This document shows, in pieces, positions 40,446 through 43,725 of a stretch of DNA of 64,000 bases; within the stretch, counting starts at the first letter, position 1; every line of letters begins with the position of its first letter. The DNA is from Sediminimonas sp. GTDB taxonomy: Bacteria > Pseudomonadota > Alphaproteobacteria > Rhodobacterales > Rhodobacteraceae. The position numbers and the translations under genes were made by a program. The stretch is from assembly GCF_024637375.1 (NCBI RefSeq), contig NZ_JAGXFK010000039.1, positions 17,924-81,923 of the forward strand, in the 5' to 3' direction. The notes below the pieces were generated by a model, which saw only the letters and a list, made by a program, of their open reading frames with translations, did not search any database and was not told the DNA's origin.

Positions 40446-42254
40446 ATGAGCGGCTCTGGCGCAGGCAAGCGCTTGACCGACGGCCGGAGCATTTCTGAGT
40501 CCTTTCAGCCGATGCCGCAGGGCGGGGTCGTGGTGACCTTCGAGGACATCACCGCGCGGAAGCAGGCGGAACAGGCTCTTGCCGACTCCGAGGCGAAACT
40601 TCAGACCGCACTGACGAACATGTCGCAGGGCCTCTTGATGCAAGATGCAGAGGGGGGGATCATATTGTTCAATCGGCGCTTCGCCGAGATTTTCCAGTTG
40701 CCGCAAGACCAGATACGGCCGGGCATGACCGTGCCGGAGCTTATGAAGCTCGCGGCTTCAACTTCCGGTCTCCGGGATCTGGAGCCCGAGGCCACGCTCG
40801 CTCAGCTGGTGAAAGTCCTCCACGACCCTGCGGGTGGAACATATGTCCAGCGCTTGAACGACGGCCGGAGCATTTCTGAGTCCTTTCAGCCGATGCCGCA
40901 GGGCGGGGTCGTGGTGACGTTCGACGACATCACTCAGCGGCTTGCCGATCAGGCGGAGATCCGGCACATGGCGCATTTCGATGCGCTGACCGAACTGCCG
41001 AACCGGGTGAGCTTCTACGATCAGCTGGACACCCTGATGAAGCATCAGAGGCCGGGCGAATTCGTCGGGGTTCTGAGCCTCGACCTCGACCACTTTAAGG
41101 CCGTTAATGATACGCTCGGGCACCCCACAGGCGACCTGTTGCTGCAGGCGGCCACCCGGCGCATGCAAAGTTGCCTGCGTGGCGAAGACATCCCGGCACG
41201 GCTGGGCGGAGACGAGTTCGCCATTATCCAGACTCCGGTCAAGGACCCCTCAGACATCACCGCACTTGCAAGCCGCCTTATCGAGGTTGTCTCGGCTCCT
41301 TACGAAATCGACGGCCGTCAGGTGATCGTGGGGGTCAGTATCGGTGTCGCCGTCGCGCCCAGCGACGGCACAGATCCCGATGTCCTTATGAAGAACGCCG
41401 ATCTGGCGCTCTATCGCGCCAAGGCCGACGGGGGCGGCGTCTACCGCTTCTTCGAGCCCGAAATGGATGCGCGTATGCAGGCGCGCCGCCTCATCGAGCT
41501 CGATCTGCGCAAAGCGATCCATAATGGAGGCGAATTCGAGCTGCTCTACCAGCCCATGATCGACGTCAAGACCGGAAAGGTCACCAGTTGCGAGGCGCTG
41601 CTGCGCTGGTCCAGCCCCGAACGCGGCCTGGTGATGCCGGCCGAGTTCATTCCGGTGGCGGAGGCGACAGGGCTGATCGTGCCGCTGGGCGAATGGGTGT
41701 TGTATCACGCCTGCGTCGAAGCCGCGCTGTGGCCGGAGGAAATATCGGTTTCGGTCAATCTCTCGCCGGCTCAATTCAAGAGCAAGAAACTCGTCCAGTC
41801 CATCAAGAATGCGCTTGCCGAGTCGGGACTACCTGCCAGCCGGCTCGAGCTCGAGATCACCGAACAGGTCCTGATGAACGAAAGCGAGGGCGCCTTTTCC
41901 ATTCTGCATCAGATCCGCGATCTCGGGATCAGGGTCGCGATGGACGATTTCGGCACCGGCTATTCCTCGATTGGTTATTTGCGCGCCTTCCCGTTCAGCA
42001 AGATCAAGATCGATCAATCCTTCGTTCGTGACCTGCCCGGCAAGAAAGACAGCATCGCGATCGTGCGTGCGGTTGTCGCGCTGAGCAGCAGCCTGGGCAT
42101 CGTGACCACTGCCGAGGGTGTGGAGACCGAAGAGCAATACGCCAGCGTCACCACCGAAGGCTGCAACCTGGTCCAGGGAAACTTCTTCAGCGAGCCCCGC
42201 CCGAGCACCGAGGTCGTACAGTTCTTCAAGAAGCGTTTTCACGAAGACACGTGA
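40446..42254 (+). CDS. PAS-GGDEF-EAL protein (c-di-GMP turnover), probably 5'-truncated
   Basis: PAS region EAKLQTALTNMSQGLLMQDAEGGIILFNRRFAEIF; GGDEF LARLGGDEFAII; EAL-type region CEALLRWSSPERGLVMPAEFIPVAEATG...MDDFGTGYSSIGYLRAFPFSKIKIDQSFV. Confidence 0.9.
   Translation: MSGSGAGKRLTDGRSISESFQPMPQGGVVVTFEDITARKQAEQALADSEAKLQTALTNMSQGLLMQDAEGGIILFNRRFAEIFQLPQDQIRPGMTVPELMKLAASTSGLRDLEPEATLAQLVKVLHDPAGGTYVQRLNDGRSISESFQPMPQGGVVVTFDDITQRLADQAEIRHMAHFDALTELPNRVSFYDQLDTLMKHQRPGEFVGVLSLDLDHFKAVNDTLGHPTGDLLLQAATRRMQSCLRGEDIPARLGGDEFAIIQTPVKDPSDITALASRLIEVVSAPYEIDGRQVIVGVSIGVAVAPSDGTDPDVLMKNADLALYRAKADGGGVYRFFEPEMDARMQARRLIELDLRKAIHNGGEFELLYQPMIDVKTGKVTSCEALLRWSSPERGLVMPAEFIPVAEATGLIVPLGEWVLYHACVEAALWPEEISVSVNLSPAQFKSKKLVQSIKNALAESGLPASRLELEITEQVLMNESEGAFSILHQIRDLGIRVAMDDFGTGYSSIGYLRAFPFSKIKIDQSFVRDLPGKKDSIAIVRAVVALSSSLGIVTTAEGVETEEQYASVTTEGCNLVQGNFFSEPRPSTEVVQFFKKRFHEDT
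40470..40552 (+). repeat. 83-bp repeat, copy 1 (copy 2 at 40851-40933)
   Basis: 3 mismatches in 83 nt; offset 381 bp (127 codons). Confidence 0.9.
40851..40933 (+). repeat. 83-bp repeat, copy 2
   Basis: See copy 1 at 40470-40552. Confidence 0.9.
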
Positions 42255-42365
42255 CAAGAAAACGCCGCTGAAATTCTTGAGAAAAGCAATGCGCGAGTAC
42301 GGCCGGCCCGAAGTGGTCGTGACCGACAAACTCCGATCTTGCGGTGCTGCACTGCGCGAAATCGG
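42250..42365 (+). pseudogene. IS6-family transposase fragment
   Basis: Plus-strand reading RDKKTPLKFLRKAMREYGRPEVVVTDKLRSCGAALREIG. Confidence 0.8.
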
Positions 42366-42519
42366 GATAGTGTCCCACGGCGTGGTGATGGCGTGGATGC
42401 CCCCTCCCGACGGCATCGCAATGTGCCAAGGTGATGTTTCTCGGAACGTCACAGAAAAAGGAGAGAGCATCCATGAGAGGCACTGGCTGGTGCACTTATA
42501 GATTTTTTCGCTCCCGGAA

Positions 42520-42549
42520 TTGACACCATATACTCTGATTGTGTATATT
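42520..42549 (+). promoter_or_regulatory. Near-consensus sigma70-type promoter TTGACA-N18-TATATT at the right island end, reading toward attR
   Basis: Perfect -35 hexamer and 5/6 -10 hexamer in an A+T-rich stretch. Confidence 0.65.
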
Positions 42550-42576
42550 TTTATTGTATGTCAATTAGTTAGATAA

Positions 42577-42596
42577 GAATCCTACCACCCCAGCCA
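42577..42596 (+). repeat. attR: right copy of 20-bp direct repeat GAATCCTACCACCCCAGCCA
   Basis: Identical to the tRNA-Gln 3' end at 76-95. Confidence 0.9.
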
Positions 42597-42807
42597 GCAT
42601 TTCCCGCAACCCGGACCGATCAAGGCGCACCGCGTGGCGTGGCGTCAAAGGCCTCCCCGGGGTCGGCATTCGCGCGGGCGGAACCCGGGCACCCGTAGGG
42701 CCGCTCAATCCGCCGCCAGCGCGCCGCCGTGGAAGGCCCTCTCGTCGATGGCCGGCTCGAACCGTTCCTCCATTGGCTGGACCATGCGCAGGTCAAGCCC
42801 TTTGCTC

Positions 42808-43725
42808 TCATGGCCGGACGATCCGGTTGGCCAGTACGCCGATCTTCTCGATCTCGAGTTCGAACCGATCGCCCGGCGCCAGCCGCTTGCCCGTTTCCAG
42901 CCCGCATCCGGTGCCCACCGTGCCCGAGCCGATCACCTCGCCCGGATAGAGCGTTTCCGAGGCCGAGACATGTTCCAGGATGCGGCCGAAATCGTGCTGC
43001 ATCTGGCGCGAGTTGCCGCCGCCCCAGCGTTCGCCGTTGACGCGCGCCTCCATGTCCAGCGCGACCGGGTGCGCCACCTCGTCGGCGGTCAGGATGAAGG
43101 GGCCAAGGATGTTGCCGGTGTCGAAATCCTTGCCCTTGGCCGGCCCCAGTTGCCCCGGCATCTCCTTCATTTGGGCGTCGCGGGCCGAGACATCGTTCAG
43201 GATGGTATAGCCGAAGATGTAATCCTCGGCCTCGGCGCGCTTGATGTCCTTGCCCTTCTTGCCCACGACGATGGCCATCTCCAGCTCGATATCCAGGTGC
43301 TCGGCATAGGCGGGCCAGATCACGTCTTGCCCGTGCCCGATGAAGGAAAGCCGGTTGCCCTTGTAGTAGATCGGCTGATCGTACCAGACCGGCGGCAGTT
43401 GCGGGTTATCCTGGCCGAAGGCGCGCAGGCAGTTGAACAGATGCTCTTCGAAGACCAGGCAATCGCGGTACTGCACCGGCAGTACCGGCGGCAGGAAGGC
43501 GACCTCGTCGGGCAGGATGACCTCGCGGTCAGAGGCGTTGTCGATCAGCACGCGGGCCAGCGCCAGGGCCTCCTCGCCGCCGTAGATCACCGCTGTCATG
43601 TCGACGAAATGCGCCGCGTTCTCGCCGGCCAGTTCCGCGGCCAGGTGCAGGTCGAGCAGCCCGCCGTCGGGCAGCGCGGCGACCACGCGTTCGCGCGTTT
43701 CGTAAAGAACCGTTGCCAGTCTCAT
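42808..43725 (-). CDS. Fumarylacetoacetate hydrolase family protein
   Basis: EDYIFGYTILNDVSARDAQ; HLDIELEMAIVVGKKG; GEVIGSGTVGTGCG. Confidence 0.9.
   Translation of the reverse strand: MRLATVLYETRERVVAALPDGGLLDLHLAAELAGENAAHFVDMTAVIYGGEEALALARVLIDNASDREVILPDEVAFLPPVLPVQYRDCLVFEEHLFNCLRAFGQDNPQLPPVWYDQPIYYKGNRLSFIGHGQDVIWPAYAEHLDIELEMAIVVGKKGKDIKRAEAEDYIFGYTILNDVSARDAQMKEMPGQLGPAKGKDFDTGNILGPFILTADEVAHPVALDMEARVNGERWGGGNSRQMQHDFGRILEHVSASETLYPGEVIGSGTVGTGCGLETGKRLAPGDRFELEIEKIGVLANRIVRP

Follow-up and report, generated by a model that had tools for sequence, protein, structure and literature searches.

A likely circular-form integrase promoter at the right end of a tRNA-Gln genomic island family in Rhodobacteraceae

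Why should a genomic island carry, beyond its last gene, a promoter-like sequence that points out of the element? The question is raised by TTGACA-N18-TATATT at positions 42520-42549 of the window (the whole 64-kb stretch of DNA analysed, from the marine-type bacterium Sediminimonas sp.), which lies between the last gene of an island and its right attachment site, attR, ends 27 bp before attR and points outward. The original prediction had described the site in these terms, with all distances correct, and had proposed that it drives the integrase only after circularisation. With a score of 11/12 it is the sole promoter-like match within 42000-43200 (0.3 expected), and TTGACA-N15-19-TATAWT occurs a single time across the window, where shuffles give an expectation of 0.01. 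The att repeat GAATCCTACCACCCCAGCCA is identical at 76-95, the 3' end of tRNA-Gln(TTG), and at 42577-42596; joining attL to attR leaves 47 nt between the -10 element and the integrase ATG at 96, with the promoter upstream and co-directional, so that the exact 20-bp repeats and the orientation both agree with the arrangement predicted for the circle. We consider it likely, from the comparisons given below, that this site is the circular-form integrase promoter (of the Pcirc or P3'end type) of a family of tRNA-Gln genomic islands. The features concerned, in window coordinates, are:

21-95, + strand: tRNA-Gln(TTG), found with ARAGORN; its promoter presumably serves the integrase while the island is integrated
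76-95, + strand: attL core, 20 bp, exact repeat of 42577-42596 (0 expected)
96-2579, + strand: integrase ORF (DUF6538 and Phage_integrase, Pfam), its ATG abutting the tRNA CCA
173-193, + strand: left arm-type direct repeat TGGTTCACAaacTGGTTCACA, within the 5' part of the integrase ORF
42476-42498, + strand: right arm-type direct repeat AGAGGCACTGGCTGGTGCACTTA, CAC-N9-CAC
42520-42525, + strand: putative -35 element TTGACA, the first six bases of the conserved box
42520-42534, + strand: conserved box TTGACACCATATACT
42544-42549, + strand: putative -10 element TATATT, best mean TATAAT match at N18 among 28 offsets (p=0.003 in 12 non-redundant relatives)
42556-42596, + strand: predicted transcription start, placed from the -10 element, and 41-nt circle leader ending at the integrase ATG (leader of 40-43 nt in 11 elements)
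42559-42576, + strand: core-proximal flank (T)TCAATnnCTTAGCnnA, from column conservation; the motif also served as selection pattern
42577-42596, + strand: attR core, 20 bp, exact repeat of 76-95

Related right ends were collected with a core-flank pattern that is blind to the promoter, which avoids any promoter-based choice. The searches covered genome contigs with the core-proximal flank and the tRNA end, and the order's genomes with the same flank (at most 3 mismatches); together with the copies already found they gave 22 right ends of Rhodobacteraceae islands, 21 of them distinct. The box TTGACACCATAT[AC]CT matches at least 14 of 15 positions in 20 of the 21, which rules out a chance origin, and its distance to the core is 57 bp in 15 of them and 54-59 bp overall. 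The only poor box belongs to L136 (the LNNU 3342 island), where the integrase start is broken too. Among 397 genomes of the family the exact 15-mer has ten matches, eight of which lie at such right ends, and an island of another kind, inserted at the same tRNA-Gln in Maritimibacter REDSEA (L129), has a right end without the box; the box is therefore specific to these islands. Because the 15-mer hardly occurs outside these right ends, a site for a general host regulator was rejected. A scan of viral contigs for the right-end motif returned no match. Identical box and spacing were also seen at position 1501 of L053 (genome G197) next to another core (GTTTCGCACCACCCCAACCA), which may mark a different target or a copy in decay.

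The -10 element is looser than the box and is weak or unrecognisable in L065, L067, L136 and L139. At N18, the spacing of the window itself, the mean match to TATAAT is the best over 28 spacings (3.67), with at least 4 of 6 positions matched in 12 of 21 right ends, and the maximum observed over N16-19 was reached by none of 5000 within-row shuffles. N18 was again best (p=0.003) in 12 rows that are at most 60% identical and exclude the window's sequence and its near relatives; this is the safer figure, because shuffle tests only partly remove shared ancestry. The right-end promoter pattern is thus conserved among related elements, the box strongly and the -10 less so: the pattern of a -35 and a moderate -10 is genuine, and promoter activity itself is predicted from it. 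An 8-bp inverted repeat, AATTGACA...TGTCAATT at 42518-42566, spans the promoter (TTGACA/TGTCAA); in most relatives it is reduced to TTGA...TCAA, and we therefore do not regard it as a hairpin or operator. At 42270-42360, in the stretch that separates the last cargo gene from the right end, the sequence looks by eye like what remains of an IS6-type transposase (YGRPEVVVTDKLRS...).

The integrase gene at the other end has a conserved start. An integrase homologue is present in all 17 genomes with right ends and adjoins the tRNA-Gln core wherever it was followed up. Every homologue with an open start, down to about 33% identity, has an in-frame ATG at -1, 0 or +1 of the tRNA end, and the reading frame follows the shift of the ATG relative to the core end; the homologues without an ATG at this place (G073, L042, L063) are decayed. 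With its ATG within one base of the tRNA CCA the integrase has neither a leader nor a promoter of its own, and promoter and leader must therefore come from tRNA-Gln in the integrated state or from the right end in the circle. A promoter-like CTTGAT-N17-TATCAC was read by eye upstream of tRNA-Gln, in a flank that lies mostly outside the window. ATG 96 is not preceded by a Shine-Dalgarno sequence, and we infer translation from it; an internal start at ATG 230 was rejected, being out of frame in the window's own sequence and in that of relatives. In 11 of 11 elements, folding predicts a more open start region for the circle than for the integrated form, where the folded tRNA precedes it. In codons 2-48, dS is lower and dN/dS higher than in the remainder of the integrase, probably owing to the overlap of these codons with a conserved DNA site.

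The original prediction is thereby supported in its main point, an integrase promoter that depends on excision: the near-fixed distance between box and core and the ATG conserved across the core speak for it. The effect foreseen was a boost of integrase expression in the excised form. As the integrase lacks a 5' region of its own, the switch is better described as a swap, in which the tRNA-Gln promoter gives way to the right-end promoter. In the window's island and in some twenty related ones, the act of excision probably hands the integrase over to a new promoter.

The strongest alternative concerns the box. Its conservation extends past the -35 element over about 15 bp, beyond what RNA polymerase needs, so that something else probably reads it as well. 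It is conceivable, if rather improbable, that the TTGACACCATATnCT box is an accessory or recombinase-binding site of attP, for the integrase, a directionality factor or a host bending protein, that its resemblance to -35 and -10 elements arises incidentally from an AT-rich attP arm, and that the integrase is transcribed from tRNA-Gln only. The degenerate -10 would fit this explanation, as would the near confinement of the exact 15-mer to right ends (8 of 10 matches in 397 genomes), which leaves no room for a host regulon site. So would the fact that the integrase is the only gene common to all seven islands compared, among which ORFs of at least 80 aa yielded no second common gene as a shared regulator. 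However, the candidate arm sites of the integrase carry a different motif and lie elsewhere at both ends: 15 of 21 right ends carry a CAC-N9-CAC repeat at about -97 (shuffle mean 0.42) and 15 of 17 left ends carry one at about +82 (shuffle mean 0.65), and these repeats look like integrase arm sites. The core-proximal flank at 42559-42576 is probably a core-type recombinase site, and the promoter is positioned between the right arm repeat and the core. As both arms are marked by this period-12 CAC repeat, we do not favour the extended box as an ordinary arm-type site. Moreover, the best -10 match falls at a legal spacing and exceeds composition-matched shuffles, and the box alone leaves the fusion of the integrase start to the tRNA end unexplained. 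We hold to a circular-form promoter whose box probably also binds an element-specific protein, and the integrase, as the sole gene shared by the seven islands, is the simplest candidate.

Alternatively, the promoter could act in the integrated state on the DNA past attR, either on a further island that follows in tandem or in antisense orientation to a gene of the chromosome. In 6 of the 22 right ends (L063, L069, L070, L072, L073 and L134) a second related left end follows directly, and attP-like junctions thus exist naturally as tandem arrays. In the window the outward promoter faces, as had been predicted, a gene on the opposite strand (42808-43725, - strand, FAA hydrolase, PF01557), and its transcription in the integrated state would be antisense to that gene. 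Yet most right ends are followed by unrelated DNA: the window's flank beyond attR is absent from congeners, the flanks of other islands differ from it and are not shared, and the downstream integrases that were read in tandem arrays (L063 and L073) are decayed. With unrelated flanks and decayed downstream integrases there is no common integrated-state target, which makes this explanation very improbable; both the unrelated flanks and the tandem junctions also fit a promoter that works in the circle. Least probable of all, and barely credible, is a vestigial promoter, functionless in the present genome owing to an altered integrase: the window's integrase does depart from its 947-aa relatives after about residue 750 to continue in a DUF3883-like tail, but its catalytic region matches the relatives, box, core, ATG and both arm repeats are intact, and chance is excluded for the family as a whole.

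The altered C-terminus, encoded at 2340-2579, is a 91% match to the end of a NOV_C/DUF3883-like protein of about 1780 aa, as if a deletion had fused two genes; an intact integrase of 947 aa is present, for example, in Sediminimonas qiaohouensis. With the C-terminus replaced, the window's own integrase copy may be inactive, although the ends of the island are intact. A plasmid search yielded no integrase covering most of the query, and a literature search found nothing on DUF6538. The cargo at 2982-42254 includes a peptide/nickel-type ABC importer, an amidase, a molybdopterin dehydrogenase and a giant GH94 protein, polysaccharide genes, an rve transposase and a PAS-GGDEF-EAL protein.

A switch of the integrase promoter on joining of the ends has been demonstrated experimentally for ICEKp1, ICEclc and ICEEc1 (PMC13023037), and Pcirc of ICEclc has been mapped (PMC2892462, PMC9286271). 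The likeness to Pcirc-intB13 of ICEclc that had been pointed out for the window is apt: there, too, an outward, constitutive right-end promoter is set before the integrase by circularisation (PMC2892462, PMC9286271). It is a likeness of arrangement, since ICEclc targets a tRNA-Gly and its integrase has its own regulated Pint and a longer 5' region. The closer experimental precedent is ICEKp1 (PMC13023037) with its P3'end/tRNA-Asn switch, found also in ICEEc1, which shares the site at the tRNA 3' end, an integrase beside and co-directional with the tRNA, the tRNA promoter in the integrated state, and a sigma70-type far-end promoter that drives the integrase only after joining. In ICEKp1, however, a distance of 161 bp (typically about 200 bp) with attenuating stem-loops separates the integrase from the tRNA (PMC13023037), whereas the islands considered here lack a leader, the ATG adjoining or overlapping the CCA of the tRNA; their target is tRNA-Gln, their hosts belong to the Rhodobacteraceae and their integrase is of DUF6538 type. 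No relaxase, type IV secretion or other conjugation genes were identified among the 15 ORFs scanned in the window's island, which are part of all its ORFs. The gap between tRNA and integrase is about 160-200 bp, with stem-loops, in the cited ICEs (PMC13023037), and intergenic regions average about 158-228 bp in tRNA-linked integrases in general (PMC2951348). The integrase 5' UTR of about 160 bp with its attenuating stem-loops has no counterpart here, where the ATG at -1, 0 or +1 leaves no 5' UTR, and the zero-length integrase leader is what sets these islands apart from the cited ICEs. A third parallel is intS of KplE1 (PMC2951348), an autoregulated, tRNA-associated promoter within the recombination site, by analogy with which integrase binding could repress the right-end promoter. 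The KplE1 promoter overlaps attL, in contrast to the window's island, where the promoter lies on the side of attR and no gap is left between tRNA and integrase.

From these comparisons we infer transcription, start site, tRNA read-through and feedback in the island switch as follows. In the integrated state, the right-end promoter would fire out of the island, through attR and into unrelated DNA of the chromosome, and the integrase would be transcribed solely by read-through from tRNA-Gln. When the integrase joins attL and attR, the right end would be placed next to the integrase gene, and transcription in the circle would run from about 41 nt upstream through a short leader without a complete tRNA. 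The integrase would then be made from the element's own promoter, favouring (re)integration, and its binding to the box could feed back on this promoter.

A more elaborate version of this switch is a speculative extension that we would not rate highly. Maturation of the tRNA and translation of the integrase may compete for one and the same transcript, since 3' processing would cut at the AUG or beside it; this would keep integrase low in the integrated state, and an uncleaved, translatable leader would come only from the circle, where the integrase would repress its promoter through the box while building the attP complex. In elements of the -1 class, CCA and ATG have their A in common, so that tRNA 3' processing would sever the start codon from its leader. 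If this were true, the switch would be transcriptional, exerted also by RNA processing, and self-limiting.

For the Rhodobacteraceae, a circular-form promoter at these right ends would extend to their islands the excision-dependent promoter swapping that has been shown in gammaproteobacterial ICEs. As the integrase alone is shared among the genes compared, all of the control logic may reside in the island's two ends together with the tRNA of the host. A leader of zero length would make this two-state logic unusually clean, and it raises the question of whether the integrase is silenced by tRNA processing.
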